In this document: one piece after another, positions 7,864-62,906 of the stretch
How positions within the stretch are numbered: position 1 is the stretch's first letter
How the letters are laid out: every line of letters begins with the position of its first letter
Assembly: GCA_950295325.1 (NCBI GenBank)
Contig: OX485806.1
Location: 55,299,169 to 55,363,168, forward strand
From: Polytrichum commune
Taxonomy: Eukaryota > Streptophyta > Polytrichopsida > Polytrichales > Polytrichaceae
Direction of reading: 5' to 3'
DNA length: 64,000 nucleotides
Translations under genes and position numbers: made by a program
Notes under the pieces: generated by a model
Seen by the model: only the letters and a program-made list of their open reading frames with translations
Databases searched by the model: none
What the model was told of the DNA's origin: nothing

Positions 7864-10800
7864 CTATCATACATCTTTCCGATTCCTCCGATGGTGATGA
7901 ACCCCCCGTATCCACTCCCATTCACAAGCCATCCTCATCCTCCGTCCGTTCCACCTTTGTTACCCTGCCTCTTCTGTCTCCTCTTCCTCCCTCCCCAGCT
8001 AAACCCCCGAATTCCATTCTTCAATGTCTACGTACTCTTGCTTCCATGCCCGGTAGGAAGAACATCCTCAAGAAGCTTGATTATGACTCCTTACAAATTG
8101 AAGACGTGAATTTTCTGCCGCCTGGTTTTGATGGGATTCGAATGTTTGTCCTCCCCCCGTTGGTGTCTCTTCCTCTCATACCAAGGCTAAATCCATGGAC
8201 GGCATGGACAAACGCTATGACGGCCATGTTTGGACCAAAACCCAGACCACCAATATCACCAATGACATGGGCCTTTCTTTTCGCTCCTCCAGTTGCGTTG
8301 GCCACCTCCAATGCCATAATCCTCTTTGCGATTACCTCCAACGTGCTCATTGCACTTCCCCGGTTAATGAAACTGATTTCGACGGCTTCACAAAGGTGCC
8401 CTTTCCCGTTGGTGGTCCCTTCCCTTTGGGCTCCACTCTAAAGTGCAGGATCTGTAAGGAGCCCCCTACGTGCATTGCACCATGCCACGTCAAAATCTTC
8501 TATGTCCACGGCAATGACACAACTCAACGTGCGTGCATTCATCTTGGCAACCGTTGCCACCTAGTCAAGGTCGGCAACTGCAGAGATAGCCGCCAGCGCA
8601 TCGACGCCCTAATCGAAGAGCACGTCGAGCAAACGCCCCAAGCCACTCATAGCAAAATCGTCCTTGAAGCTAGCAAGGACCTTGTGGGTGAGTTCCTCCT
8701 CCGCAATGATAGTGATCCTCATCGCCTTCTCTCGTTGGAAGAACTTGAGCCTGTTTTTTATCGTTGGAAGGAGTTGAATTCCCCCCACCTCCTTAACAAG
8801 GTTATCAATTTCAAATACTTACGTAGGTTAGGGGTTATGGATGGCATTTCCAAGCTTTGAGGTGTCAGCAACTGGGCCTATGTCTAGCGTAATCAATTCC
8901 CGGCCCAGGGTGACGATACGGACAAAGTTTTTGTTTTCAAGATGTTTGAGGTCGACCCTGGCAGTGGGGTCGACTTGGTTAAGCGCATGCAACCTGGTGG
9001 GGATCTCGAGCATGGTTGGATCATGTCTGACCATGTCAAATGCGTCGCCAAATGGACCACCATGGCCTGCCACGTATACGACGGAACCTACCAACGCATC
9101 ATGACCATCGCTTGCTGCGACTTCCAATCCGAGGCCAAGGATGCTCAAGTTCTTTTCTAGCAGAACCTCAACCAAGTCATGTCCTGGCACGGTATCCCAC
9201 ATCCAAACTTCATAGGCTTCATGGTAGACAGTGCCCAAGCTAATTGGAACGTTGTGCGGTTCAGGAGATCCTAAAGTTCCAACGGAGGGCCGTGAGCGCA
9301 CTTGTTATTTTCACTGGAAACAATCGCTTCAGAAACATACGAAATCGTATATAAAACATGAGTTACAAGACCAACATAGACACCTTTGCCTTCAATATCG
9401 GAATGCGTCGTCTATGGAAGAGGCGGACACTAGGTACCTAGCTATCAAGGCTTGGTGGGCGTCGTCGAATTGTACAAGTGAGGATGGTCTCAAACACCTC
9501 CAACTATGGCTTGCTTTTTGGCACTTCTGCTACTTTCAATGGGGTGGTTTCATGGAATTGGTACATTTCCCTTGTGATTCATTTCTTTTTTCTGCATTTA
9601 TTTTCCTCTCTCTGTACTCCCTCTTATACTATATTTCTCCAATCAGGAAAAGGTATTGACCCAAGACCAGTTGGCCGAGATGCCGTCGTGCAATCTTGCG
9701 GAGTCCATCCACAACAAGTGGCTTCAAGCCTCTGGCAACAAGGGTGGAGATTTGTACGTGGCTACCGTGGACGACTACATTCGCGCCTTCTTACAAGTTG
9801 TTGCATACTACCAATTCCTTAAAGGTGGAGTTGGCGGTGATGGTCCAAGCAAAGAAGAACTGAAACTAAGGGGAGCTCAACGTCGAGCTCAGCGTATTGG
9901 CGACCCCATAGTGTTGCAGAAGGTCTTGCATGACATGCCCGGTGGGGAAGAGTTTGCACTCGCGATCCACACCTTGAGGGCGCCGAGGTGTTTGGATCGC
10001 AGAAGCGAAGATCGGACACTCCAATTGGTGATGATGGCGAGACGCACCGCCCCGATACCGTCAACTTCTCTCACCCTCCCCCCGCTAAGCGAGTCACTCG
10101 ATCTCAACCAGTACCACTACCTACTATCATTGAGGAGTTTTTCCCGTTTGTACAAGAGGTTCAAGTGCCTTCTCCAGTAGGAATTGGTTTTCATCGTGTC
10201 ACCGCCGTACAAGAAACCAAAGTAGATGTCTCTCTTTGGCATATTGCCCGCTACCGCATACCTCTAGGAAGTCTTGTTGGGCTAACCATGCGGGCACGAA
10301 GAAGAAGTGCACTGCAAGAATTGTCACCAATAATAAGAGCGTCCATGCGCCGACCTACACCGGTATGTGGCATCATTACACACTCAAAGCGGAGAAGCGC
10401 ATGGACTTCGTCTTTTGCCCAGACGACATCGAGCATTGTATAGTAGGGCCCTCGTCGGAAATGGGTCATGCCGTTCTTTGCTGATGATCAGAAACCTCCC
10501 ATTCCTCCAATCTGGCCCGTCAAGATTGGTACCAACCTCACCCGTTCTGAGATCTTCGCGCTTGAGAACGCAGGTTTTCAACTCCCACCAAATGAGCGCA
10601 TCACACCAACTCGACTCTTCACCAATTCCGCTCCCCCACCAGATATGTCTGGAATCCGTATTCCAGACAACCCAGACTTCATCCCTCCGACAAGATTGTC
10701 CAAGGTTGTTCGACGATCCATCAACGCACCTTCGGCAAAGCAGACGCAGATGGTTTGCCTCTGCTGAAGCTATGCATGGTACTGTTCCGAAATTAACTAT

Positions 10801-31627: not shown

Positions 31628-32824
31628 TCACAATGTGTCATTGAGATCAGGTAAAGACCTCTCACTAGAGACAAAGAAGCTTCTAATGTCACATTGTTTT
31701 AGTGATGTTAAATGTCCAACACCAATTCTAATGTGTTTGTCATGGATGTTTTCCATTCCTAACAACTCATGAGTGTTGAAAATCTGAGAACCTTGGCTAG
31801 CCATAAAATTCAAAACATCTTTAGCATATTTTTGTGCATCGCTTAGCTTCACTACTTTAGACTCATCATCATTGCTATTAACAATCAATGGGTATTCTTC
31901 CATGGAATCAAGTACATGTTCGCCATCTTGCACTAATTGCACAAGCTCCTCAATAGAATATTCCACCTCAAAATCATCTTCACCTTCCATGTTTATGTAC
32001 TCTAAAGGACTAAGCTTTTCTATAGGCTTGCCTTCAACATCCAAACCCAAATTCAATGCGGCGATGAGATTGCCCAATTCCAAAGCTGCTTCCTCCATTT
32101 TGGACTTCATACGTTCATCAGAATTGTTGATATCTGCATTCCACGCTGCAGGCAATATGGCAAACTTTCTCCAACAATTTCTAATGGTTTGATCATCTAA
32201 TTCATGCCATGCCGCCACACACCATAGCATTGCTTGAAATAGATCAACATTCAGTTTCCCCAAATCTTCATTTGAGTTATCAATTTGTTGCAAAGTCCAG
32301 GCAACAAGCTTGCGTTTATAGCACATTTTGAATGCTGCAATCACTCCTTGATCCAAAGGCTGAACAACTGAAGTCACATTTGGTGGAAGAAACAATATAG
32401 TGATATGGGAGAGTACAAAAGCATTAAATCCATCTATAACTTTTTTGACCTCACCATGAATATCATGGCTTCCTGCATTATCCATAATAATGCAAATTTT
32501 TCTATCTTGCAATGCCATTCTTCGGTTCTCACTCTTCACCCAATGTGTAAAAGCATCACCATTCATCCAGGCTGAATTGTTAGAATAATAGTGTACTATA
32601 CTATTTGGATCAAACTTCCGAGGAAAGCATCTGGGACGTGTTGATTTGTGAATGAAAACAAGCTTCAATCGCTCCTTCCCTGAGATATTAGTGCAAAGCC
32701 CCAATGTCACACGGTCCTTCTTTTTATTTCCTTTTGCCTTCCCAATATTCAAAGTCTTGCAAGGAGAGGCTTTATAATACAAACCTGTCTCATCAAAATT
32801 GAAGATGTCTTCAGGATCTTACTA
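31628..32824 (-). pseudogene. Tigger/CENP-B-type DDE transposase, N-terminus missing
   Basis: The catalytic residues are visible in order: Asp in FNFDETGLYYK just above 32782, Asp in IIMDNAGSH, and Asp in VVQPLDQGVI, the DDD pattern of pogo/Tigger transposases. About 390 residues are open. The helical C-terminal part is acidic (GEDDFEVEYSIEELVQLVQD). Two consecutive stops (TAG TAA) lie just upstream of DPEDIFNFDE at about 32825, and no CENP-B/psq helix-turn-helix region is seen before them, so the DNA-binding half is lost or unreadable. The remaining catalytic domain is intact in frame, which suggests fairly recent activity. Confidence 0.85.
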
Positions 32825-36591: not shown

Positions 36592-38139
36592 CTATTGTGA
36601 GCTTGTAGGGTCATCGCCGCTGTCTCCTTGTTGATGCCCTGAGCCACCCATAGACTGTTGGTCAGGGTTCAAGTTGCGACTATATGCATTCAAAGCTGCC
36701 AGCATTCCTAAGTGCCCTTCACCACCAAGGCCTAACCCAGTTGCTGGCATTTGTTGACCGCCTTGCTGCAATAACATAGAACCAAGCGGCATGTGATGAC
36801 CCAAATGACCCCCTTGAAGCTCTAGGCCCACACCTCCCTGTATGTTGATCCTAGGCATCAGTGTCACACCGCTAGGCAGTACTGACGCTGTCAAAGGTAC
36901 CATAGCCCCGCTGCTGCTGGAAGTCGGAGGATTACCTTGTCCACTCCCGCCGCCTCCTGGTCCCAACTGAATCGATGTCCCCGCCGGCGCAGCCATTCGA
37001 TACCCCCCTGATGGGAACGTCCAAATTTGCTGCTCCGACGGGCCAGACATAACTCCAGGGGTGGTCCCGCTTGCGCTCACCGGCAGCATCCAGATCGTCC
37101 CTGGCATAGCGCCACTGCTCGACACCCCCGCGACAGCAGGTGCCACTGCCCACATGGCTGGCATCAGGCTCGACGAACCACCTTGCTGTTGTTGTTGCTG
37201 CTGTCCTTGCTGCATCGATTGCCTTGCGGTAGCTCGAACGGGCCTCACCGGCTCTGGCTCCTCCTTTAATCGCCCTAGGGGCGCAGGCCCTCGTGGCCTT
37301 TTCCGCAACCTACTGTCGGAGGAATCCAATCCTTCGCCGACCTCTGAAGGGGCCCCCACCAGATCCTGGTGCTGAAACCCCGCCATCATGTCGTGGCTCA
37401 TTCCAGGATCACCATGCCCCAAGCCCATGCGCCGGCTGGCGTCCATAGCTCTAGTAGCATCCATCACTCGCTCCTCCGCACTCGCCCCCCAATCGCTCCT
37501 TCCCCGCTGCACCTGCTCCTGCATCCTCGCACTCTGCAAATCAGCTTCCGTTGGACCGCCGCCAGTGCCGGCCAGGCCTAAGCTGCCATGCAACACTGTT
37601 CTACCAGCCACTGCCACAGCCATGCTCGCTGAGCTCCTCAGCGGGCCTTGAATGGACGAGGCTAAGGCCGGGACCGTGCCGGTTCCTGTTGCAGCTATGA
37701 TTGACTGCTCTGCTTGTTGTAGCAGCCACTCGATAGTCTCACCATCCGATTTGTGACCAAGCTCACGAGTGAGCTGAAATATTCGTGCTGCACATGTCGC
37801 CGGCATCCGTATCCGCCTACCGCGACCATCGACTTTAGTGTGCCTATCCTTCGTAGAGGATCGCTTCGGTGGTTGCTTTTTTGCAGCGGTGGCTGCCACT
37901 GAAGCCTGCTGCTGTAAAGGTGGCTGCTCTCCTGAAACAACAGCCATCGGTTCCTGGTGACGGGTCATCGACATACTGCCCATACCGCCTACGCCCCCAC
38001 TAGATTGTCCCTCGCTGCCGTATTCCTGCCCCATACCCGCCATAGCTAACGTGGCGTCCACCTGCGAGGACCCTGGGCCGCCCCCTAACCCCTGTCCTCC
38101 CATTGACGCCATTGCCTGTGCCAGCCGCCCTGCATTCAA
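36592..38139 (-). CDS. Class I TCP transcription factor
   Basis: An intact 515-residue plant-specific TCP DNA-binding protein. The TCP domain spans about residues 92-150 (37690-37866). Its basic region is [20 protein letters not shown], followed by the helix-loop-helix with [20 protein letters not shown]. The basic region has the short class I (PCF-like) form, and the Cys in PATCAARIF is the position known in class I TCPs for redox sensitivity. Class I TCPs bind GTGGGNCC-like sites and control cell proliferation and growth. The rest is low-complexity: a Gly/Met-rich N-terminus, a poly-Gln run near residues 310-320 and a Gly/Gln-rich C-terminus. It is intronless and GC-rich compared with the AT-rich surroundings. 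The first ATG leaves a full N-terminus, so I keep it. It is the only clearly intact host gene here. Confidence 0.95.
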
Positions 38140-42462: not shown

Positions 42463-43289
42463 TGTGAGCCCGAATTCATGCTCACAATTCATGTTAAACT
42501 TTATAAAACACTAAAACATGCGAATTAGGATGTCTTGAGTCAATTGAGGATTAGATGGGGTTGTTGTTTCCTTTGTTAGACTGTTGATTTGTTAAGCTAT
42601 TGGCTTGAGTTATTAAGTGCGAAAAAATAAAATTTAATTAATTAAGTTGGTTAGAGTTAAGGGATGCCATGCTCAAACGGCTTGAGGGTAGGGATGTGGT
42701 GTGTGTTAGAAGAGTATTGGTCGTTTAGTGTTAGGACTCTGTTCGTTTTGGGATGGGGGTCCAGATGTCCACCGGGCCCTAGAGTTTTCCGGCTCCTTGG
42801 AAAACTGTGCTAGCAGTTGAGCAAGGAGATTCGGAGGCAGCAGAAGAGAGTGTGGCGGCTGGAGCGCAGAGCACTGCCGCATTGGGTTGCAGGGTGAGAA
42901 GTTGGTGATTACACAAGGCTGCTGCCGACAAGGCTGCAATTCGGGGGAAAATAGAGCGGGATGGGTGTGAAGTCATGCAAGGGGTTGTTGCTGATTGGAA
43001 TCCACAAGGCTGGAGGGGAAAGCCACCCTCGAGGGGAGGAGTTGTGGAAGAAAGAAATGATGGCGGTAGAGACCAACAACTTCCTCGAGATGCGGCCAGA
43101 AGGGAGGAAACTAATGAATTGGTAGCTATAGGCGTAGATTCTTGAGGAGAGGCGGCTCGCTGATCAGTTGTAGGAGGCGCCGAGGAGCTGGTCTCAACAC
43201 ACCGCAACCAGCACACCGAACTGACAAATCATAAATTCTTACTGTTACTTACCTGATGGGTCGCAATGTGGGGAAGGGGCTAAGGGAAA

Positions 43290-43720
43290 TGTCACGTGAG
43301 GCGACATCGGGGGCTAAGTCACGTCAAATTAGGAGTAAATGGACTCCACTAGGAGTCCATGTGTGTTTGGATGGATTATGGACTCCATTGGGAGTCCTAG
43401 TTAGTTGTTCATCCACTCCATGGATGAAATCCACATAGGATTGGGGTTATGTGGAGAGGAAGGCATCTTGACTTGCCATTGTTGTCAAGTCAAGTCTTGT
43501 GAGTGTGTTTTGAGAGAGAGAGATCTTGTTGTTGCTATCTTATGGCTATGGTGTAGTAGATCATGAGTAAAGCCTTTTCATTCTTTCTCCATCACTTGCA
43601 CTCTTGGATTCTCCCTTTGTGGAGTGAGAGATAGCTTGACTCTTGTGTGTGAATTTCAGAGTTTCTTAAGCATTGTAAGGAGACTTCTTAGTTTCTTGAG
43701 CTTGGAGAGAGAAACCCTCA
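43290..43720 (+). repeat. Ty3 element B 5' LTR block
   Basis: TGTCACGTGAGGCGACATCGG to GAAACCCTCA, 431 bp. Nearly identical to 52620-53052; differences include two extra GA units and a few substitutions in the 3' copy. The sequence after CCCTCAT differs between the copies. Confidence 0.85.
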
Positions 43721-44055
43721 TACTTGACAACAATTCGCTTATTTTTCATTTTTGGTTGTATTTCTGAGCTAGAATGGCCCAGTAGTGAGAGCAAATGAGT
43801 GATATAAGTGTATGAAAGCTTAGTTTGCAATTCCTTGCAACCCTCAAGAAGATTTTGAGCAAAATCTCCACATTTCTCTTTTGGTGTCTCTTTGTGTTTT
43901 CTTGAATTGTTGATGGTTGAATCTTGAGACCAAATGGAATCTCAAGTCACATCTTTCTTGCTTGCAAATTGTGGAAGCAAAGTTTAATTTTTTTCATTTA
44001 AAACAAACACAACAAAAAATAAAAATAAAAATCCGATTTGTTTTTAATTTTTTTT

Positions 44056-44079
44056 GAGCTCCGGACGGATCCGGAGCTC
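44056..44079. repeat. GC-rich hairpin in leader
   Basis: Perfect 10-bp arms GAGCTCCGGA and TCCGGAGCTC around a CGGA loop. It starts a GC-rich patch (44056-44170) inside an AT-rich leader. It could be a packaging or translation-control structure; this is inference. Confidence 0.5.
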
Positions 44080-44339
44080 ACCGGACCCTCTTGGAGCTCT
44101 TGCCAGAGCTGGGGCAGCCGTGTGCAGACCGGGCCGGGGGCGGGCGGGCGCCAGCTAGGCCCTGGTAGGGGCCCATGTAAGCCTTCCTTTTTTATTTTTT
44201 TATTTTTTTATTTTTGTTTTTGTTTTCCAACATTACTTTTACCAAAATTTGTTTTACAATTACTTTTCACCTTTTTACATTTTTTTAAATTTTTACATTT
44301 TTACTTTCACCTTTCAAACTTGGCATTTAATTCTCACAA

Positions 44340-44790
44340 ACTTTGAGGTTCAAATTTGGGGGCATACTAGCTCCGATTGGAGTGAAATTTGAGCCTATAT
44401 TGTGTGAAATTTGCCAAAGAATCCAATGGTGTAATTGGATTGTTGATTGGAATTCAAAATCATTGCTGAAATTATTAATTTCAACGCTGATTTTTGTTTT
44501 TGGGAGCAAATTAACTCCGAACGGAGTGAAATTTGAGCCTAATTTGTGTGAAATCTTCCTAGGAGTCCATTGGTGCAATTAGTTTGTTGATTGGAGTCTA
44601 TAATCACCTTGGAAATTAACATTTTCAACGCTGATTTTTGTTTTTGGGAGCAAATTAACTCCAAACGGAGTGAAATTTGAGCCTAATTTGTGTGAAATCT
44701 TCCTAGGAATCCATTGGTGCAATTAGTTTGTTGATTGGAGTCCATAATTACCTTGGAAATTAACATTTTCAACGCTGGTTTTTTAATTTT
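44340..44790 (+). repeat. 144-bp tandem repeat, three units, in leader
   Basis: The landmark GAGTGAAATTTGAGCCT starts at 44380, 44524 and 44668, exactly 144 bp apart. Units 2 and 3 are nearly identical and unit 1 is diverged. Each of units 2 and 3 has a small CTCCxAACGGAG inverted repeat. The position between LTR and gag is the usual place of Ty3 leader repeats. Confidence 0.9.
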
Positions 44791-44943
44791 AATTACCAAT
44801 CTCAAACCTTTGCACAGTTTTGGAATTCTGGGGGCCTAAATAAACACTTGGCATTTGGCAAGGGATTGCCATTTAGATAGCTAGCAACAGGTGCAGGTTG
44901 CCATTACCTTGTAGATAGTTTCCGGTACTCAAGTGATTATTTT

Positions 44944-46722
44944 ATGGTGCAAACTAGGAGCCGATATTATCGATCTCCATCACCAGATTACTTGGAGGAC
45001 GTGCATACCACAAATCTTGAGCCAGAGGTAGATACCAACGAGGCTTTTGAGCCTATTTCGGCGTTGGACATTACTAGTAGGCTTCGGATTTGGAGTGTTG
45101 GCACGTTCGACGAAATGGACGACGATCACCACGGTTCAGTGCGTGATCGGTTCTCAGGTCGAGCTTTGGGCATTTCCTTGCCCGATTGGAAACTCCGGTT
45201 CCGTACCTGGATTAAGGAGAAACGCCAAAGGTCTTCCAATTTCAATGATTGGTATGCCTTTGAACTTCTGCCTTAGCACTTGGAGTATGAGGCACTCCAA
45301 ACTTACGAACGCTGGACAGAGGGTCATCAGCGACAACTTCGGGAGGTGGAGCAGTATTGGGAGGCCCGGGTTGAGCTTATTTCAGCCTTTAAAGATGGGG
45401 CGATTGCCACCTTAGCTCCACTCACATTAAAGGAGGAGGATCCACCGGAGGAGTCTAAGGACAAAGAACTGACACTTGGGCCAATAGTGGCTGGCAGTAG
45501 CACGGCTACCCTTTCACGGATGGCACGTGCTACACAGGCAGCATTGACAGTTGTTGGTCCACCACCTCCATTTAATTCCCTTACTAAATTTGTCGCACAT
45601 TTGGAGGTGGGATATGGTGGATTTCGGCGAGACCAGATGCAGCGCATTCAGGATTTCTGCCGAGAGAAGGATGACATTCCACGGACCATGTATACGCGAC
45701 TCACACGCTTTGCTGTTGAGTCGGGAGGTGTTTTTGCTGAGAGTCAGCTTGTCAAAATCTTTTTGTCTAAGATTGACAAGTGGCTACTTGAGTTGGCATC
45801 ACCTCGGATTATCCTCGACTACGAAGCCAGAGCTACGCTTGCACAAGCGTTTGCCGTGGTTGAGAGATGTGATCGGGCTCTCTGTCAACACGATGCCACA
45901 GACATGGTATCTTGGATGACAGAGAGTACGAAATCAAGAAGAATTGTCACAGCTACTAGTACTTTAGCTGAGACTCAAACCGTTAAGGAGCAAAATATTT
46001 TGCATTGTTGGGGTTGTGGAGAAGTTGGTCATTCGAAGAATGATCCCAATTGTCCTAAGAAGAAGAAAACCTAGCTTTTGGGAAAATTAAAACAAAAGAT
46101 AGAACCTGTAAAGGCATGGGACAATTCTAAAAAGAGACAATTGAAATGTAACCATTGTGGTGGCACTAATCACAATGTGGATCATTGTTTCCAACTTCAT
46201 CCTGAGATGCGGCCTGCCAGTTATGTCACTGGAAAATCTCCAAGGGAGCAGAGTCTTGAGGCTAAGGTGGCAAAGTTTGAGCAAAAGCTCAAATCTTCTG
46301 CATCTTTTGCTCAAATTTCTGAGCCGCATGCGGATGGTGGCACCTTGGATTCGGACATGTATATGTTTGGGACATCTGGAGAGGTGGTGGCTGCGGCTTC
46401 TACTCGATCACAAACATTGGCAAATGCGGTGGCTTCTACAAGTGGTGGTAGCAACGAGGTGTCACATCCTCGCCATGCCGGACCAGTGGATCAAGTTGGT
46501 CAAGCACGTTTACCTCTTTCATTTGGATTGGTAGACACCACTGTTGTTGGGGCTAAAAACCATGTACCTTTGAGAGATGGGGATTCCATCTCGAAGGATA
46601 TTACGCAAGTAATGTCATATAAAATTCTCCATATGCCATTTTTCTCGGGTTCGGAGTTGATGGCTCCGGATTTCAAGCCTGTTGGAGTTTTCCATTTAGC
46701 TGGGAAAATGTTAGAATGTTAG
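44944..46722 (+). pseudogene. Gag domain with two zinc knuckles
   Basis: Starts MVQTRSRYYRSPSPDY, a typical Ty3 Gag start. The capsid-like part includes LTRFAVESGG and a Leu/Ile-rich helix region. Two zinc knuckles follow. The first, at 46006-46053, is C-x2-C-x4-H-x6-C, slightly long. The second, at 46147-46188, is canonical C-x2-C-x4-H-x4-C. They would bind the element RNA during packaging. Stops at 45274, 46072 and 46720 interrupt the frame. Confidence 0.8.
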
Positions 46723-46728
46723 GCGGAT

Positions 46729-47310
46729 TTGCCATCCCTTCAAGTATCCCAAGCTGTTGTTGACGTACCTGTGGCTGAGGAGGTGGAGGACTTAGCCAAT
46801 TTGCGAGTGAGCCTTGCGGATGCGGCGATCATTGCTTTTGGTAAGTACATTGATATTCCTCCATCAACAATTTCAGCCGTGGACACGTCATTTTCGAATT
46901 ATGCAGCGGGAGCGACATATCTTGCAGATATTTCTGCAAGGCCTGCTCACGAGCGGCATAATTTGCAACCTGGAGTTGTACGGCTGATGAACGACAAATC
47001 TTTGTTTGTCGTTTTACGCGCGGATATTCCTACTATTTGTGTTACACCACTGAGAGTTATGATGGATTCCGGTGCTCAACCGGTTATGATTGGCAAAGGA
47101 CTTGCTGACAATCTTGGATTGATGCCAGCAAACTTAAATCCTTGTCCATTCACAATTGTGACTTCAGTAAGGGGCATTGAACGTGCAACAGGTTACACCA
47201 AGGCACCTCTACGTTTGATTTTTAATGTGGGGGCAGGACCTACCTACACTCATTTGTCAATAAAATGTGTTATTTCTAATGCTACCAACTATGATATACT
47301 TGTTGGTTAG
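46729..47310 (+). pseudogene. Retropepsin-type aspartic protease domain
   Basis: The active-site triplet DSG lies at 47065-47073 in VMMDSGAQPVMIGK, followed by LGL and the ILVG end motif (YDILVG) at 47290-47307. This is the standard Ty3 protease layout, which cleaves the polyprotein. It is open for 194 residues between two stops. Confidence 0.8.
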
Positions 47311-47589
47311 CAAGCTCTTCATCCACTTGGCTTTGGTTTGGATAATTGGACTGAAGAGGCATGAATTAGACCGGGATGGTCTTCTGGAGATGGCAAGAAG
47401 GTATTTATTCCTGTAGCATTTGCAGCTACTTCTATGACTATGGTTGCGGAGGCAATGTTTGGTTGTAGCGGTTCAGTTGCGGATTTGCCTTGTGCTCCAG
47501 TTTTGTTGGAGGAAACATTGGACTACACTTGTAATGCAGCAGAACAACAAATTTTGCCATCTTTACAAATTTCTGCTCGGCATTTCAAG

Positions 47590-48760
47590 AATCCACCTCC
47601 ACCATGGTGTACCCCTAAGGAGTTATCCGACCATTGTCAACACATTGTAGCGGATTTGGGGCTTGGAGAGACACCTCCAACGTCATCCTCAATTTCTTTT
47701 GCTCAACCCATTCGTTGGCAACCACCACCTGAAGGTATTGTCCTTATGAAAATCTTTGGGGGCATTGGCACTGGTTTGGCGGCAATGTTGGAGGCTGGGA
47801 TTACAGTTAGGCGATATATTCATGTGGATAATGGATATGCAGCCAACAGAACCGTCTGACACCACATCCAACAATTGTTGTTGAGGTACCCCGCACAATT
47901 GTCAGCCTCTGCCATTCTTGGATGTTGTGGTCAACTTTCTCAAGATGTCACTATGACTAGTGATGAGGATTTGAGAAGATTGGGCCACATGGATTTAATT
48001 ATTGCAGGATGGCCTTGTCAAGGCCATTCACGGGCAGGAACTGGCCAGGGTTTGGATGATCCTAAGTCTAGTTTGTTCACGGATTTTATGCGATTGATAC
48101 AATGGTGGTTTACCCACCAATCAATTCCGCCATGGTACATTTTTTAAAATGTGCCATTATTGGGTGATACACGGTACAAAGTGGTGAAGGATGGTGAGTA
48201 CATTAACCAAATTCTAAGTACTCCAACATTTCTGGATGTTGCATCCTTGAGATCCTTTGCTTATCGGCCTCGTTGGTTTTGGACCAATTTGGTATCACCT
48301 CAGGTGCTTTCAGCGGCGATCGCCCGCATTCCCCACCTTATGAATCGCAAGGTGGATGACATTTTAGATGATCATCGTGTTTCTTTAGTAGTTACCAAGG
48401 ATGACACCTTGCCATTTGCATTAATTAACAAGGTGGGAATTCCGGGAGGTGCACTACCTATTTTTGTGGCATATCCACGGTTTTTTGCATTTCGATCTCG
48501 TGGACCAGGCATGGTTTGGGATTCAAAATCCCAAACTCATGATGAACCTACGGTAGATGAGCGGGAACGCGCCATAGGTTTTCCTACAGGCACCACGGCT
48601 GCTCATGGGCTTCAGGAAGGTCAGAGACGTTTCCTATTGGGACAAACTATGGATCTCAAAAGCATGGTGTGGATAATTGGTATTTGTCTTGCTGCTCAAC
48701 AACGTATGGATTACCAATTGCTTCCTCTGAGGGCAAAAAATAATGGTCAGGGGGTAATGG
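47590..48760 (+). pseudogene. C5-cytosine DNA methyltransferase domain within Ty3 Pol
   Basis: A methyltransferase of the DNMT/Dcm fold sits between protease and RT. Motif I (SAM binding) is KIFGGIGTGL at 47749-47778. Motif IV is AGWPCQGHS, with the catalytic Cys codon at 48016. Motif VI is NVPLLG at 48148, preceded by TAA at 48145 where the conserved Glu of ENV should be. Motif VIII is RPRWFWTNL from 48265. Motifs IX-X are ERERAIGFPTGTT (about 48570) and RRFLLGQTMD (about 48630). The order and spacing look DNMT3-like with a short target-recognition part. The product would methylate DNA cytosines. This copy is inactive because of stops at 47857 and 48145. Cytosine methyltransferases inside retrotransposons have been reported in some eukaryotes, as I recall; subfamily placement needs a tree. 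Confidence 0.88.
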
Positions 48761-49053
48761 AGCCGCAATCCAAGGATCACATGGAGGTCAATGACACCGA
48801 GGGATTATTTTCTTTGAAACAACATGTTGCGGAAGAGATTCGAGCCCAACGTGTTTTTTCGGCTTTGGCCTAAGATTTTGGGAAGTTGGAGGCCCATAAA
48901 ATGTTTCCACTTCTATTTCTTGGTGACACTTCATATGTGGGTAGCTATTTAGCTACGCAAACTGATTGTAGTGGAGAGGATACGCATTTGGATTCAAGTG
49001 CAGATGAAGGGGGCAAAGGTGTTGTCCTCTCCACGGACTAGCAATCACAGGTT

Positions 49054-49977
49054 GTGCTGGCACCAAGTGGCAATCCTTCTATGAAGAAGAAAACCACGGA
49101 GTTTGATGATTGGCCAATTGAAGTGGGGCCAAAACTTACTGGTGTCGAAGCACAAAAGGTACGGGCATTTATTCACTTTTACTGTAATTGTTTTGCCTTT
49201 AGTCTTCATGATCTTGTAGGATATAAAGGTAAACCTATTCGTATTCAACTCGAGGACGACCATCCTATTTTCAGACGGCCGTACAGACTTAGTACATCTG
49301 AAAGGTTGGGTGTTCAAACTTGATGTCAAGAATTATTGGCAGCGGAATTGATTGAACTCTCTAATGGAGAGTATGTTTGTGTCACGATTATGCCTTCAAA
49401 GAAAGATATCTTTGGCAACTGGACGGAAAAACGGATGTGTGGTGATTATCGTCCAGTCAACCGCAAGACCAAGTTGGATCGATATCCAATGCCGATGCCA
49501 GAGGAGTTGTTTGATGCACTGGGATTTGCTAGAATCTTCAACACCCTGGATTTGAGGTCTGGTTATTATCAATTACCTTTGTTGTTGGGTGATCGGGTGA
49601 AGACCGCATTTTGGGGAATTGATAAAGATGGCAAGGATCAACTTTATCATTGGAAATTTTTACCATTTGGTCTCAAGAATGCACCAGCTGAATTTTAGTG
49701 GGTGATGGACCAATTATTGGATGATTTACCGTTTGCTAGATGTTACATTGATGATGTTATCATCTTTAGTAATAGTCCACATGATCGTGTAAGACATTTG
49801 CAAGCGGTATTTGAACGACTACAACGGTGGGGACTCCGTTTACATCATGACAAATGTAAGTTTTTCTATGATCAATTGCCCTATTTAGGCCACATGATTG
49901 TTCCTGGCGGTCTTGGTGTGCAACAGGCGACGGTGGATGTTTTGCACAAAATTCCCGCACCTAATGATGTACCATGA
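49054..49977 (+). pseudogene. Reverse transcriptase domain
   Basis: Conserved Ty3 RT blocks are present: CGDYRPVNRKT, LDLRSGYYQL (first catalytic Asp), FLPFGLKNAPAEF and the YIDD box at 49744-49755 (catalytic Asp pair). It would copy element RNA into DNA. Stops at 49321, 49696 and 49975 interrupt it; the first and last fall at positions where Arg is usual, the middle one where Gln is usual. Confidence 0.9.
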
Positions 49978-49979
49978 CT

Positions 49980-50580
49980 TCGGGCATTTCTAGGATTGGC
50001 AAATTATTATAGAAGGTTTGTCAAAAACTTTAGTTTGATTGCCAAACCTCTCACCATTCTCACGGGGAAAGACCAACCATGGATTTGGAGTCGGAAACAA
50101 CAACAGGCATTTGATACATTGAAGCAGAGGCTCGGTTCAGCGCTAGTGCTTCGACGTCCGGATGTGTCTAGAGCTTTTCAATTGCACACGGATTGAAGTG
50201 CAATAGGATTGGGAGCGGTATTGACACAGAAAAATGAAGAGGGAAAGGAATATGTGGTGGCTTATGCATCTAGAAGCAATAATAGGGCTGAATCTAATTA
50301 TTCTTCTTATGAAGGCGAGGCCTTGGCGGCCATTTGGGCCATTGCACATTTTCGACCTTATTTGTATGGGCAAAAATTTACTTTGGTGACTGATCATCAG
50401 CCTTTAAAATGGCTTATAGAATCAGATAAATTCACCGGGAAACTTGCTAGGTGGGCATTGTTACTTTAAGAATATGACTTTGAAGTTGTTCACCGAGCAG
50501 GAATTGCCAACTTGGATGCAGACGGATTGTCTCGCAATCCAAGTTCTTCAGATGAGGATTTAACTGGAGCCAGGTGGCAT
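49980..50580 (+). pseudogene. RNase H domain
   Basis: Connection motif LRAFLGLANYYRRFVKNFS is followed by the RNase H start LHTD at 50182-50193 (first catalytic Asp), YEGEALAAIWA (Glu) and LVTDHQPLKWL (Asp). It degrades the RNA strand during reverse transcription. TGA at 50194 replaces an expected Trp, and TAA at 50467 an expected Gln. Confidence 0.85.
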
Positions 50581-50712
50581 GGAGATTGTGATCGTGAGGC
50601 AGTGTCGGGTTGGCATGTTGCCACATATCTCACAATGATGTCGGGATTGGCTGCTGAGATCCTTGTGGAATAACAAAATGAGGAGGTTGATAAATATCTC
50701 GTTGTTAGTGAT

Positions 50713-51900
50713 GTGTGGAAAGACCAAGCCGTCTTGCACAAACTTCAACAAGGGATATTTCCTATTGGACTATCTGCTATGGAGCGAGATAGAGTTAGCC
50801 ATCGAATAACAAGGTTTCGTTGGGCAAATGGCTTGTTATTTCGTGTGTGGCCGAACGGAACGAGGCGCATCATTCCAAGGCCAGATCAAAGAGCTTCTTT
50901 AGTGCGGCAAGTGCACGATGAGCTTGGACATTTTGGAGTGCGAAGGACACACTCTATGTTGCCCAACCAATATTGGTGGACTGGTATGTATCAACAGGTT
51001 GCCACTTATGTTTCTAGGTGTGAAGTATGTGACCGGGTCAGGTCAAGTTTTAATACTTTATCACCTCAACTTCAACCTTTACCTATTATGGGCTTGGGAT
51101 ATTGTTGGTCTTTGGATTTTGCCGGACCGCTTACTATCACTCCACGTGGGACAAAGTATGTACTTGTGATGGTGGAGCATTTTATTAAGTGGATTGAACT
51201 CGTGGCTCTTCCCCAAAATTCCTCAGAATTGGCGGCTATGGCATTTCTTGATCGAGTTTTGACACGGTTTGGAGCACCTGCAGAGGTGTTGACGGATCAA
51301 GGGAGAGAATTTCTTGGATCTTTCGAGGTTTTGTGTACTAAGGCTTTGATTGATCATCGAACAACTTCCAGAGATCACCCTGAGGCAGATGGCTTAGCTG
51401 AACGAGTTGTTCAGACTATCAAGCGCGGTTTGCGGAAGTATGGGTTGTTTCATGGCAACCATCGCGATTGGGACTTGATATTATCATGGATATCAATGGA
51501 TTACCGTTTCAGCAGGCAAGCATCTTTGGCATCCTATAGTCCTTACCAACTCTTGTATGGACGGGAATCAATTTTACCTAGCTCTGTGCGAGAGAAATTG
51601 GCTCCTGTGGTAGACTTGGATGATCCAGATGTTTGGGCTCAATGTCTTCATGACCGAGCAAAATTCTTTCAAAAGGCCATGCCTATGGCCATGGAGAACT
51701 TAAATATAGCTCAACATCGTGATACATTACGGTATGCCCAGATCCGCAGTGGAGCTTATCGACCTCAGGTTCGTAGATTTTCCAAGGGGGATTATGTTTA
51801 CTTGCAACGGGAGGCGCCTACAACATTGGATGTCAAGGCTGGGCGCACAATTTTGCGGGTAAAAGATGTTTTACCACGTGGTATATTATTGCTTGAAGGC
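50713..51900 (+). pseudogene. Integrase: H2C2 zinc domain and DDE core
   Basis: Open without stops. The single H2C2 zinc domain lies at 50911-51030 (VHDELGHFG ... YWWTGM ... CEVC). The DDE core has Asp at 51115 (SLDFAG), Asp at 51295 (LTDQG) and Glu at 51400 (LAERVVQT), all intact. The C-terminal SH3-like part follows (KGDYVYLQ ... GRTILRVKDVLPRG). It would join the cDNA to host DNA. Unlike element A, only one zinc module is present. Confidence 0.9.
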
Positions 51901-52008
51901 AAGGATGGACAGGAATGTCATGAGCATTCAAAGAATTGTGCTCCATGTCACCTTCCCATCGACGGCTCTGTGCATCCCGAGTTGGCGGTTGTACCACAGG
52001 GTCTGCCT

Positions 52009-52146
52009 TGTTATGTGTGTGGAGAGAAGAAAGGAGCTACAACAATGTTATTGTGCGACCATTGTCAACGTGGATGGCACATGGCATGTTTGACACCTCC
52101 CCTTTTGACTCTTCCTTCTGGCAATTGGGTTTGTCCTCGTTGTCGG
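52009..52146 (+). CDS. PHD zinc finger at integrase C-terminus
   Basis: A complete C4HC3 PHD finger: C-x2-C-x11-C-x2-C-x4-H-x2-C-x15-C-x2-C, with the usual Trp two residues before the seventh ligand (GNWVCPRC). It is in frame with integrase, which has no stop between the core and here, so a fused integrase-PHD is encoded intact. PHD fingers read histone H3 tails. The place where chromoviruses carry a chromodomain is here taken by this finger, suggesting chromatin-guided insertion. That role is inference. Confidence 0.9.
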
Positions 52147-52185
52147 AAAGCCTCCCACTCTATGGGTGTTAATGGTCATGATTGA

Positions 52186-52509
52186 GGACTTTGTGGATGT
52201 TTGCCACATGTCTTAGTGGTGAAGTTGTCATCTGGTTGGTCGGAAGTTTTATGGGATTGAAAATCATATTGGGAGAGTTATCAAAGAATTCAACATAAAT
52301 TGTTGAAGGCGATTAAGGATGGGGCTCACATTGCACCCAGCCTATAGTTCTTGGGTTACTTCCTCAACCATGAATTTAATTCCTTAGATTACCACTATCC
52401 AATTGGATATGTACAGATGTAGCAACAACTTCATCATGTTCAACATCTCTACCGATGAGTGTGTTTGTTCCTAGCCGATTGGAGGGGCTCCTTATCTGCT
52501 AGGGGGGCA
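52186..52509. other. Ty3 element B 3' non-coding internal region
   Basis: About 320 bp between the polyprotein stop and the LTR region. It ends in a G-rich stretch (CTAGGGGGGCACTTGAAGAGGTGG) that may be the polypurine tract. Confidence 0.5.
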
Positions 52510-53161
52510 CTTGAAGAGGTGGTTGTTTGGCATATTAGTTTGCTATGTTTATTTTGCTAATTGATGTTGATGACGACACTCGATCTGTTGTGTTTAACGA
52601 GCTTAGTTTACACGACAGCTGTCACGTGAGGCGACATCGGGGGCTAAGTCACGTCAAATTAGGAGTAAATGGACTCCATTAGGAATTCATGTGTGTTTGG
52701 ATGGATTATGGACTCCATTGGGAGTCCTAGTTAGTTGTTCATCCACTCCATGGATGAAATCCACATAGGATTGGGGTTATGTGGAGAGGAAGGCATCTTG
52801 ACTTGCCATTGTTGTCAAGTCAAGTCTTGTGAGTGTGTTTTGAGAGAGAGAGAGAGCTTGTTGTTGCTATCTTATGGCTATGGTGTAGTAGATCATGATT
52901 ATAGCCTTTGCATTCTTTCTCCATCATTTGCACTCTTGGATTCTCCCTTCGTGGAGTGAAAAATAGCTTGACTCTTGTGTGTGAATTTCAGAGTTTCTTA
53001 AGCTTTGTAAGGAGACTTCTTAGTTTCTTGAGCTTGGAGAGAGAAACCCTCATCTTGAAGAGGTGGTTGTTTGGCATATTAGTTTGCTATGTTTATTTTG
53101 CTAATTGATGTTGATGACGACACTCGATCTGTTGTGTTTAACGATCTTAGTTTACACGACA
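52510..53161 (+). repeat. Ty3 element B 3' LTR region with A-B-A structure
   Basis: Block A (52510-52617, 108 bp) and block A' (53054-53161, 108 bp, one mismatch) flank the LTR block B (52620-53052). The A-B join is the palindrome GACAGCTGTC. The 5' LTR has only block B. The last base pairs of A' (CACGACA) with the first of B (TGTCACG) give TG...CA ends, so the full LTR may be B plus A' (542 bp), preceded by a stray LTR end. Confidence 0.7.
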
Positions 53162-53804
53162 AAAAGGCAAAATCTGCCCAAGGCAGTGAGATGAATTGCT
53201 GAGGTGCCGGCTATGGAGTTGGGCCTTTGGGTTCAGTGACCACACCTAGGGCTCAAAGGCGAATGCGTGGGAGGCAGAACTAGCAGAGTGCGGCAGGGGT
53301 CTTGAGCTATCAACCACGGGTGGATTGGGTTGAGTCCAGGGGGCTCGGCCGAAGGAAGAAGTGGGCGGTGTCATCACCCACTGACTTAGGAAGTTGCTCA
53401 ATGGGCCCAAGAGTGGAGGGAGCCAAGGATGGACCAGTGTTAGGCACACTGTAGTATTGAGTCCAGTGTTAAAGTTCAGTGGGTGGGCATGTCTAAGTGA
53501 GGCTTATTCAAGTGGTGAACCTCAGTGAGAGGCATCACGTGATCAAGGCACTTGGGTTAGAATTTCTTAGATCACGACTTAGATTTGAATTGTTTTCACT
53601 TATGTGCAAATGAAGCCTAAGTATTTGTGAATGCTTGGCACCTCTATGTATTGAATAAAATGATTAGTGTTTTCTAGTTCTATCGTTGGAATAATGGGAA
53701 AGGATTATAAGATTATGGGAGGGTTCAAGTAAAGGAGCAAGTGAGCCTTGGGCTTCCACCCAGACTACAACGCATAAGGGTGGGGGTTTAAGGCTGACAC
53801 TTGG

Positions 53805-59155: not shown

Positions 59156-62100
59156 CTAAGAGTCAAGGTACTTCAATAAACCAGCCTGCAAAACTTGCTT
59201 CACTTCGTTGAAGCTAAAACTAGCTGCATGAATGAACGTGTCTGAATCTGAGTCCAAACCACACAGTACAGTAAACAAATAGTACAAATGCTTACAGTTG
59301 GCCCATTGACCCCGTTTTCCAATTGCCTTAGTTGCCATCTCCTTGAAGTTAGGACAAGTGCATGCTAGTAGCTGCGAAATCGTCAAGTAGTATTGCTGAA
59401 CCTTTGGGGGCGTGCCGGAATCCAACGAGACTATGCATCCTAAGGCAGGGGCTGGAAGCATGCACAATTTGTGCACTTTGGCTTTCAGTGATAGGGCTGA
59501 GGCACAATTATTGGCGTATTTTGTTGACAGGGCCTTCTTGTTGCGCCTAATCAACTTCCCTGAACGCCGGGTGGGAAACTCATCCGGATATGCAGGTGTC
59601 GTGTAGCTTGCTAAGTCCAAAGGTAACGGATGGTCCTGAAAAATTTTGGAAGGTGTCATTTCCTTCCGCTGGGGCAGTCTAAATCCTACATTTTCTAAGG
59701 AGAGGATCTCTTTGCAGGTTAAGTTGGTCCCCAACTTAACCGGCCATACCTCCGGAACGTTCGGGATTGAGACCACCCATCTTCTTTTTGTCCCCTTAAC
59801 GCATCTCTCAATGTCGTCATTGCAGAAAAAAAAGTCTTGAGGGTCCAATCTCTTCTTCCGAAAGTTATCCATGAGGCCTGAGTAGGTAGGTGCAGCGGTG
59901 CTCTTCCCGTCTTGTACAATCCGAGCGACGCACTTCTTCTTGGTGATTGCTTGTAGAGCAAAGCAAGCCTTCGCAGATGTCTTAGGCAGCCGTGCGATGT
60001 GCCACTGGGCAGGGTTGCATAATGTCTCCTCAATCGCGGTGACGTGGTGTCGATCCACCTGCTGCGGAGCTACGTGTGTTGGAAGTTGCGGCTGCTTTTC
60101 ATCTGCGTTTGTGGGAGAATCTGGAATTGTCACAGGAGGTGGAGAATCGTCAAGTCGGGCAGATCTGGTTTAGACGCGAGGTCGGGATATACTGATTTTG
60201 TCTGGCCTGTGAGATTCATGTTCGTCACCTAAAGCAGTGTCTGGTTTACGCTTCATAGAAACAAATACCTCTTCCCCTTCGAGGTGGGGAGTCCTGGTGC
60301 ACCACTCGTCACCGCCAGGCATCTTCAAGATGGCCTCATGCAGCGGTTTCGATATTCCTGTTTTTGCGACAGACCTCTGAGCACGCCTCAGCTTCAATTC
60401 CTCCTTCGAGGGTCCAGTTCCAGGGTTGTCTCCCTTCAGGAATTGGGAATATGTTGAGCACTGCATGAAAGCACGCACGAAATCATCGACTGTTGCCACA
60501 TAAAGGTCGCTGCCTCGATCGCCGGATTGCTGCTTCCACTTGTTATGGATAGATTCAGCAAGGTTACAGGATGACATTTCCGCTAGTTCAGCTTCACTTA
60601 GATTCTGCAATGCCCATAGAGTTCGATTTAGGTTTTAGGGGATATCAATGTCGTTGAATTATAAAGAGTGAAATATATAGGAAAGGATTTGGCAAGTAGA
60701 GACTTAACAACTCCATAAATCCACCCTATTGGCGGTAACGGAAATGCCATAAGGCCAGCTAGAGCTCCAGTCGAGGTAGAGCTTGTTCAGTTGCTGCACC
60801 GGATGACATCCACCATGCCCGAATTGCCAGAAACTTTGTCTCTGCCTCCGCCATCGATTTCGCATTCTTGTATTGCTGGCATAGTATTCGATGTTGATAT
60901 TGCAGGTCTTGACGGATATCGGCCTTGGTATGTTTCTCCAAGGACTGCGTCCAATGGAAAAGACAAGTCCTCTCTTTGTCTACCATCTTCTCAGGCGCAT
61001 CTCCACTTCCGTATGTGATTCGAACAACATTCCAGTTGGCTTGGGCACTGTCGGCCATGAAACCCTTAAAATTTACTTTGTGCACTCCATGTTGAGCCAT
61101 GAGAGCGTTCAAGTTCTTCCACACGACTGACTGGGCAGCAACATCTTCAGACTGCATGTCGCATACTGCGATGGTCATGACACGGCAATATGTGGAATCG
61201 TACACATGGCAAGCCATTGTGGTCCACGACCTGACCCGTTTGACATGGTCAAACATTATCCACGAGTTCTCCAGGTCACCACCGGGCTACATTCGTTTGA
61301 CGAGGTCGACGCCGCTGCCCGACCCAACTTCAAACATCTTGAAGACAAAAACCTTGTCCATGTTCGCTCCTTGCCCTGGAAACCTATTCTGCTGCACGAA
61401 CCTCCAATTGCTAGCACCGCGTAACTTGGTAATACTGTCCATGACTCCAAAGCGACGCATAGTCCTAAACGTGGTAACTGCGTTACGAATGTTGGGTGAG
61501 GTTAGGTGGTTACACCGATCGAAAATAACTTGCAGCTCGTCCAACTCCAAGATCTTTTGTGGGTCACCTTCTTTAGCAAGGAGGAGTGGACCCAGTACTT
61601 CCTTTGCAGTTTCAAGCACAATAGCAGAGCGAGTGGCTGAGGGGGTGCGTTCGACTTGATCCCCAATCAAGCTGTCTGTCAAATCGATGAAGTCCCGATG
61701 TTCACCTGACTTCATGGGATGGTCATGAGATCCCAAGTGCACACAAGCCCTCGTCATGTGAGGTGTCCCAGTAACATAGTAGATCTTGGCAGTGCAGACA
61801 GCTACACAGGTGGGAGGGACATTACAGGATTTGCAAACAACTGTGGAACCAGCGGGAGGTTTGGACCCTAATTCAAACAATTTCTCAGATAATCCTTCCC
61901 ACTCTGTTTCATTCACTTTGGAAGTCCTGTGGTCTCGCTGAAGATACTCACAGGCATGATTGTCGCAACGGAGGTGGCCCAAACAAGAAGATGTACGAAA
62001 CAAAAGCTTGAGATCATTCTGAATATTGGATGTAATTGTGCGAGACCAAGCATGGCCATCGTACCTTCTGTCTATTCCTCGAAGCTGCTTGGCCTTTGTA

Positions 62101-62906
62101 ATCTGCCCATGGTCACCTACAGGTGGAAATTCGAAGATAACGTCCCCATCGTAACGAGGGGGAAGGTAATCAACTTGCTGGAGTCTGATCGCATCAAAGT
62201 TAATTCGAGACAACACACTTTTGGACCGCTTACGAGCTCCAAGACGCATCAAGGAATGAATGATACTGAGAGCAGGACTTGCCACAACCTTGGCCTGACC
62301 AGGATGACTAGAGGGACTAACAGGAGGAGTTCTTTCCTGGCGAACTGCTTCTGTAGAGAGCGAAGGTCGGACTTCACTATCTGACTTTAAAACTTCTACA
62401 TCGCCGTCGGAATCATCACTCAACTCATAAATTGTATTTAGACCGGGCTCAATTTTGACCTTGGACAACAACGGTCTCTCAATGCTAATAGTGGACGACT
62501 CCCTAGGTGTTAGAAGTTCAGTCGAACAATCAAACATAGACTCAGAGATTCCATATACGCGATATTTTCCAGGCTTCAGCAACCAGAACGAACCGTCATC
62601 ACTCTCAACTCTAGTATGACGAACTGCATGTGAAACTAGACCGGTATGATCATCAAAAACTTCTTCTTCGACAAAGATAGTGACCTCACGATACTGAAAC
62701 CTCAAACTCAAAGTTGCACAAGTGACTATAGCATGACCGTCTTCACTTAATGGAAAGAGGACCGGAATAGAATGAGATTCAGCACGAAGGAGGGCCATAG
62801 TGTACGACAGAACTCTGATCAAAACAAGTCCTCTGAACATTGAAATGGTGATAATATATAACAGGAAAGGAATTACAGAGCCAACTGGCAACTTATGTAC
62901 TAGCAA
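59156..62906 (-). pseudogene. MULE B transposase (WRKY-GCM1-like / MULE core / SWIM)
   Basis: Two exon blocks, each in a constant frame. Exon 1 (62906 or ATG at 62798 down to about 60709) has an acidic/Ser linker (YELSDDSDGD), a WRKY-GCM1-like zinc region with RYDGHAW ... CLGHLRC...C near 62070-61950, and the catalytic core with GFMADSAQANWN and CLFHW. Exon 2 (about 60612-59156) ends in a SWIM zinc motif, CTC ... CKH, near 59350-59290. An intron of about 95 bp separates them (acceptor TTGCAG|AAT), matched in MULE A. Four stops interrupt it: TAG at 61287 (Gln in MULE A), TAG at 60759 and 60726 (Trp in MULE A) and TAA at 60170. There are no frameshifts. It would act in the nucleus to cut and move the element. 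Confidence 0.8.

Follow-up and report, generated by a model that had tools for sequence, protein, structure and literature searches.

DNA methyltransferases carried by retrotransposons are known from a few eukaryotic lineages and were described in 2018 (de Mendoza 2018, PMC5890265). KnitGypsy-Dnmt3 of Klebsormidium nitens is a Ty3/gypsy element with a DNMT3-type methyltransferase (MTase) in its polyprotein; the paper treats it as an acquisition in that lineage, reports purifying selection on it and, in the legend of Fig. 4, gives its repeats the layout of DIRS elements. The dinoflagellate elements SymbioDIRS-Dnmt3 and SymbioLINE-Dnmt also carry a DNMT, but they use tyrosine recombinase or LINE machinery and belong, according to the same paper, to an unrelated class of retrotransposon. 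A more recent paper (PMC12344493, 2025) repeats the earlier finding that certain DNMT3 family members are located within retrotransposons. Here we describe an element of this kind from the moss Polytrichum commune, found in a stretch of 64,000 nucleotides (assembly GCA_950295325.1, contig OX485806.1, forward-strand positions 55,299,169 to 55,363,168), hereafter the window. We are practically certain, taking identity and anatomy together, that the element at window positions 43290-53161 is a Ty3-type retrotransposon, now decayed, which carries a DNMT3-type cytosine methyltransferase; all features of the element given below lie on the plus strand. The kind is already known, but we found no account in the literature of the anatomy, the breadth or the integration pattern described here.

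The earlier note on this sequence had proposed that the polyprotein of a Ty3-type element includes a C5-cytosine methyltransferase, placed after the protease and before the reverse transcriptase (RT), and this is borne out. An in-frame piece of the domain (47863-48147) matches PF00145 with an E value of 1.8e-10 and 41.2 bits (cut-off, 22), while the two remaining pieces (47434-47859 and 48151-48870) gave no PF00145 match when searched singly. The domain runs in one frame through 47731-48708, slightly narrower than the 47590-48760 originally suggested, and contains motifs I, IV (GWPCQ), VI (stop-N-V), VIII (YRPRW) and IX-X. Upstream lies the aspartyl protease region (46951-47370, with DSG at 47065-47073), whose matches in the window are weak (E 0.003 and 0.007, under the Pfam cut-off), and downstream the RT core (49357-49941; RVT_1, E 4.9e-8). 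By profile and by fold the methyltransferase is nearest to DNMT3, DNMT2 ranking much lower in the profile search; the PF00145 significance together with this DNMT3-like profile and fold rules out a chance motif match. In a careful rooted tree of 55 rows, the element MTases group with DNMT3 apart from phage C5 methyltransferases (support 100/99), DNMT3A being a single long partial row and host plant DNMT3 not being among the rows. The catalytic cysteine and glutamate are retained in all 17 aligned copies of the element, and the catalytic residues are conserved across both domain orders found among its relatives (see below).

The domain is a regular part of a repeat family. Our searches covered the species' own genome (408 Mb in 64 contigs, the window being on contig 4). 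PF00145 returned 353 candidates; 123 were scored and all 123 matched. Twenty copies were retrieved, mostly chosen for long open frames, and all 20 proved to be the same element, in two types (12 and 8 copies) distinguished by repeat sequence. A search with the RT gave 2780 candidates, and each of the 73 that were scored has an identity of 95% or more. Of the first 20 RT matches not previously retrieved, 11 had no listed PF00145 match, and 10 of these formed the test set for copies lacking the methyltransferase. All 10 have it: identity is 96.7-99.3% across 961-962 of its 978 bases, where the retrieved stretch ended. No copy without the domain was thus found among the 20 PF00145 copies and the 10 RT copies, which rules out a private insertion into the window copy, one of the two outcomes that the earlier note had named as damaging to its proposal; the other, lack of a significant match to PF00145, is countered by the match given above.

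In open copies, ORF1 has about 1360-1386 codons and ORF2 about 1042-1048, in the same frame with one stop between them. ORF1 (44884-49038 in the window) encodes the presumed Gag, the protease and the MTase, the last at residues 951-1276 of an own-genome copy that served as a yardstick of convenience. ORF2 (49042-52182) encodes RT, RNase H (50077-50511, found in the yardstick copy and mapped onto the window), a DDE integrase (IN) with H2C2 and rve domains (50872-51441) and, at the C-terminus of the integrase, a PHD finger (52009-52143; E 2e-10 in the window and in the yardstick copy). A protease upstream, followed by RT, RNase H and rve integrase, is the arrangement of Ty3 elements. Among the sequences of solved structure nearest to the PHD finger (60 of 88 listed) are those of CHD4, PHF12, KAT6A, PHF21A, DPF, KDM5, ATXR5, UHRF1 and others. 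Several PHD fingers of this group bind unmodified histone H3. By analogy with chromodomains, the finger may be a reader of the H3 tail that guides integration; Pfam at E 0.05 lists the PHD finger and does not list a chromodomain.

That protease, methyltransferase and RT share one polyprotein frame, as had also been claimed, is correct for the frame but not for its continuity. A single in-frame TAG parts the protease-MTase portion from RT in 21 of 21 copies, and the product is therefore likely to be a readthrough polyprotein, not the translation of one uninterrupted ORF. The codons after the TAG are CAATCA in type 1 including the window copy (13/13; window 49039-49047) and CAATTA in type 2 (8/8), so the readthrough context UAG-CAR-YYA, here UAG-CAA-YYA, is present in every copy. 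In the text of PMC2754532, this consensus is described as essential for readthrough in tobacco mosaic virus (TMV), whose sequence allowed 32% readthrough in plants. The TMV signal is thus matched, but in a retroelement and between MTase and RT. It is very probable that readthrough of this UAG produces the RT-IN-PHD extension. Since the leaky stop lies after the MTase and before RT, the MTase would be made on the Gag side, and in excess.

The window copy is dead. It keeps a single frame without frameshift and is 87% (ORF1) and 92% (ORF2) identical to the yardstick copy, but it has 14 internal stops, eight in the ORF1 frame and six in the ORF2 frame. Two of them, at 47857 and 48145, fall in the MTase domain; the second (48145-48147) replaces the motif VI glutamate, and the window copy must therefore be incapable of catalysis.

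Long copies of the element are organised as A1-coding-B1-A2-B2, with A of about 432 or 331 bp and B of about 108 bp. In the window, these parts are A1 (43290-43721), B1 (52510-52617), A2 (52620-53053) and B2 (53054-53161); the element starts with TGTCACG and ends with ACACGACA, and the B1-A2 junction (52610-52626) reads ACACGACA-GC-TGTCACG. With up to one mismatch allowed, the genome has 211 occurrences of the 20-base B-A junction and none of its reversed control. Standard long terminal repeats (LTRs) at 43290-43721 and 52620-53053 were an early assignment, dropped once B1 and B2 were found. Unlike in Ty3 elements, the two ends do not have the same full LTR, A standing alone at the left and B-A-B at the right. 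The A2-B2 junction is identical in the eight type-1 long copies, and likewise in the six of type 2. Between A1 and A2, the window copy has the largest divergence of the 14 long copies (Kimura two-parameter distance, 0.0286), and five of the 14 show zero substitutions over the first 328-430 bases, which points to recent activity. The family is high-copy and recently active.

Both flanks could be read in 19 of the 21 copies, the other two being L012, rearranged on the right side after A2, and L009, whose right end lies beyond the retrieved stretch. An exact 4-bp target-site duplication (TSD) borders 16 of the 19, the flanks match in three of four bases in two, and one has none. The window copy is one of the two partial matches (left GAAA, 43286-43289; right AAAA, 53162-53165; no strand assigned), as an old copy. 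Because exact duplications flank the start of A and the end of B, a DDE integrase apparently inserts the DIRS-like layout. DIRS elements share the split direct repeats (A-coding-B-A-B), but have a tyrosine recombinase and no TSD in place of the rve integrase and 4-bp duplications seen here. Fourteen of the 19 copies are long, and five are short forms (A-coding-B: L013, L016, L022, L027 and L028) with no terminal repeats and an exact 4-bp duplication in every case; L028 has a different sequence ahead of its B. The short forms look unable to serve as template again. Their use as proof of integration of a one-LTR circle was given up, as recombination between B1 and B2 after insertion gives the same product with the TSD kept.

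No tRNA primer-binding site (PBS) was seen by eye after A1 (no TGG start). Instead, 12 type-1 copies have, directly after A1, a stretch of 13-16 nucleotides that is perfectly complementary, in reverse, to a site inside A; in seven type-2 copies such a stretch, of 12-15 nucleotides, lies two bases further on. The pattern is thus present in 12 of 13 type-1 and seven of eight type-2 copies, and missing in L012 and L028. In the window, the PBS ACTTGACAACAAT lies directly 3' of A1 (43722-43734), and its partner in A1 (43478-43490) is a candidate for the RNA 5' end and self-primer. The two types differ at paired PBS positions with compensating changes, and 5000 shuffles of one A gave a match of 13 never and of 12 twice. 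Self-priming as in Tf1 is very likely on these grounds. It has been reported in plants for Tcn1 (PMC6317226), and Tf1/sushi elements and the plant Tcn1 chromoviruses of that report have a self-priming PBS complementary to a leader site; the present element differs in its PHD finger in place of a listed chromodomain, and in its split repeats. The leader also contains three tandem copies of a 144-bp repeat (44355-44786).

A polypurine tract (PPT), AGGGGGGCA (52501-52509), lies directly 5' of B1, and the positions of PBS and PPT together define an expected LTR of B+A. In an exact-pattern search of the genome for type 1, B1-A2-B2 occurred at 64 places and B-A-PBS at none, the positive control for the PBS side being local only. 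The integrated form is therefore a circular permutation of the complementary DNA (cDNA) predicted from PBS and PPT; the same sequence would result if a circle with joined LTRs were opened, on the PBS side, at GACA-GC-TGTC. A two-LTR circle cut at random does not fit the 64:0 result, as for type 1 A-coding-B-A-B is found and A-B-A-coding-B is not. An alternative is a DIRS-like route in which the RNA spans B2. As a tentative proposal, which we would not call probable, the element may be a circle-junction integrator: the DDE integrase would insert a permuted cDNA opened at the palindromic B-A site GACA-GC-TGTC, not the linear PBS/PPT form with an LTR of B+A at both ends, and this would be coupled to an H3-tail reader and to a cDNA methyltransferase of the element's own. 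Together these would make a family, found in both streptophytes and chlorophytes, whose members set their own chromatin state on extrachromosomal DNA before insertion.

Protein searches, each drawn from the 8000 best candidates, returned 35 and 89 proteins for the MTase and 1009 for ORF2, of which 120 were listed. The named sources of relatives are Marchantia polymorpha, Calypogeia fissa, Sphagnum, Riccia (ORF2 only), Closterium and K. nitens and, among chlorophytes, Haematococcus and Tetrabaena; the Tetrabaena match to the MTase is partial, and the Haematococcus protein shows no MTase. In proteins from Marchantia, Calypogeia and Sphagnum (P0016-P0024, P0059, P0079, P0090), the MTase is 41-50% identical, several having protease or RT in the same protein. 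Their source names are hypothetical, unnamed or DNA methyltransferase, and the names seen never say retrotransposon. A further protein of the element family, P0037 (73% identity), is annotated as DNA cytosine methyltransferase in a metagenome-assembled genome of Candidatus Obscuribacterales, and is probably plant DNA in a bacterial bin. From K. nitens come P0034 (MTase 34% identical), P0175 (ORF2 47% identical; order protease-MTase-RT-IN) and P0205 (RT-IN-PHD). The viral contigs of IMG/VR contained no ORF2 relatives; an MTase profile search there gave 16 loci, which we took to be phage-type C5 methyltransferases because IMG/VR is a viral collection, and 15 of the 16 supplied an outgroup row in the careful tree.

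Among 245 proteins, including our two ORFs, 34 have the order RT-MTase-IN-PHD and others have protease-MTase-RT-IN, with or without PHD. A quick RT-IN tree (102 rows) has a branch with SH-aLRT 99 that parts 38 rows from 64; this tree and a quick MTase tree of 115 rows were midpoint-rooted, with no outside Ty3 clade. The MTase stands between RT and IN in 33 of the 38 rows and is not shown in five. On the 64-row side, it stands before RT in 11, and the rest have none in the protein, as expected where the MTase lies in ORF1. Klebsormidium P0175, Closterium and the bryophyte elements are together on this side. The quick MTase tree has the same split, 33 against 82; every one of the 32 RT-MTase-IN rows falls in the smaller group, together with one fragment without RT. 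RT-MTase-IN-PHD appears to be a second domain order, in a separate clade that includes chlorophyte proteins. Five proteins in this clade have no detected MTase (P0178, P0184, P0173, P0180 and P0208) and could be losses, ancestors or cases with the MTase in another ORF. One old acquisition and one relocation would be the simplest reading.

The element resembles KnitGypsy-Dnmt3, as described in PMC5890265, in being Ty3/gypsy, in its DNMT3-type MTase within the polyprotein, in its DIRS-like repeats and in purifying selection; both the MTase and RT-IN are homologous, in the same order as in K. nitens P0175. The host here is another plant, PHD does not occur in the main text of that paper, and we found no leaky stop, PBS or TSD described there. 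We consider common descent of the two elements highly probable, slightly less so than we first judged because the tree contains no outside Ty3 clade. The homologous proteins of Marchantia, Calypogeia, Sphagnum and Closterium make this a wider lineage, and probably an older one, than an acquisition in K. nitens would imply. The earlier note's remark that retroelement-borne methyltransferases are known from a few lineages agrees with the literature. The element is not peculiar to land plants: homologues occur in liverworts, mosses, Closterium and Klebsormidium. Searches of open-licence papers turned up no report of bryophyte members of this kind, or of a PHD finger, a leaky stop or TSDs in it.

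The best overall explanation, which we regard as probable, is that the window contains a dead copy of a recently active Ty3-type family, with MTase and PHD finger, whose new copies would be pre-methylated. The leaky stop would supply Gag-protease-MTase in excess over the RT-IN-PHD extension, with many methyltransferases per particle. As in Tf1, the RNA would fold so that its 5' end primes the cDNA, which would be methylated in or beside the particle; the DDE integrase would then insert it, steered by the PHD finger to histone H3 tails, perhaps those unmethylated at lysine 4 (H3K4me0). The most likely effect would be that new copies land already methylated and are kept methylated by the host's CG maintenance system, with less damage or less attention at the landing site. 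For the narrower claim that methylation of cDNA or insertion site is the function, we see about even chances. A precedent exists in the DIRS-Dnmt3 enzymes, which methylated CG in yeast and for which methylation of cDNA has been put forward (PMC5890265).

Several observations weigh against parts of this explanation. KnitGypsy-Dnmt3 gave no methylation in yeast, a result its authors judged inconclusive since DNMT3B also failed (PMC5890265). Motif IV is PCQ or ECQ and not the PCN of DNMT3A, and the domain is for this reason called DNMT3-type and not a standard DNMT3 member. Gag is represented by weak zinc-knuckle matches alone, and the protease stays under the Pfam cut-off. Within type 1, the ratio of nonsynonymous to synonymous substitution rates (dN/dS) is 0.52 for the MTase against 0.15 for RT, so the MTase is less constrained, and 1.08 for the PHD finger (51 codons, few changes); among the 17 MTases, L011 has an in-domain stop and L028 an altered motif X glycine. 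One copy, L026, has no TSD, and two match in three of four bases. The careful tree does not cleanly part the two domain orders. Finally, CpG depletion, a possible trace of the self-marking that the earlier note had suggested, was not seen: the observed/expected ratio is 0.63-0.77 in the coding region, and eight 8-kb blocks of the window, two of them with element sequence, gave 0.50-0.77.

Of the competing explanations, the least improbable is an independent capture, in which the element took a host or viral methyltransferase separately from the Klebsormidium element. It draws on the identity of only 34% to Klebsormidium P0034 and on the careful tree, where the MTase-before-RT rows need three changes and the RT-MTase-IN rows two, a single clade having an approximately unbiased (AU) test p of 0.41 that neither rejects nor proves a single origin, in trees without host plant DNMT3. 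We think it unlikely, as P0175, Closterium and the bryophytes fall on one side of the well-supported RT-IN branch, within the limits of its midpoint root, with the MTase before RT in all 11 of the 64 rows that have it in the same protein; the quick MTase tree splits likewise, and the same DIRS-like layout is reported for KnitGypsy-Dnmt3 (PMC5890265). That an ordinary LTR element only seems to have split repeats, through faulty assembly or through decay, would be easiest to argue from the short forms (5/19), since B1-B2 rearrangement may occur, but it is hardly credible in view of the 64:0 count for type 1, the constant A2-B2 junctions in both types and the TSDs at the start of A and the end of B.

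The remaining two concern the enzyme, and we rate both as somewhat less likely than independent capture. The MTase could be a passenger, captured once and now decaying without function for the element, as the stops in the window copy and some others and the type-1 dN/dS of 0.52 might suggest; the catalytic residues are nevertheless kept in both domain orders, the domain is present in 10 of 10 RT copies, and dN/dS within type 2 is 0.24. Between types, dN is 0.28 with dS saturated at about 2.3, values for which medians were used, sums being meaningless where dS is saturated. Judged from these sequence comparisons, the element is under purifying selection. Or the enzyme could methylate RNA, of tRNA or of the element, as DNMT2 does: its place on the Gag side would bring it together with the packaged RNA, and RNA methylation has been proposed for SymbioLINE-Dnmt (PMC5890265), but its profile and fold are DNMT3-like, with DNMT2 far behind.

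The window also contains features outside the element. An ORF at 36592-38139 (minus strand) belongs to the TCP family of plant transcription factors (PF03634, E 4.1e-29), in keeping with a land-plant or streptophyte host, and one at 31628-32782 (minus strand) encodes a DDE_1 transposase (PF03184, E 4.1e-36), the remnant of a DNA transposon that we take to be of Tigger or pogo type. Two ORFs without a Pfam match, at 8195-8860 (plus) and 61287-62906 (minus), look alike by eye in a cysteine-rich stretch (GHLxCxNxxCxYLQRxH) and are perhaps another repeat family. An Rfam search of the window gave no matches.

What had been an oddity of one alga becomes a wider plant and algal lineage whose elements combine a histone reader with a writer of DNA methylation, and the reason why a transposon would methylate DNA becomes open to test. 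The hosts include liverworts and mosses, kinds of plant that can be cultivated and transformed in the laboratory. For retroviruses, the question of whether joined-LTR or circular forms integrate is generally regarded as settled; the combination of DDE integrase, TSDs and repeat layout in this family would allow a test of whether integration can start from such a form.
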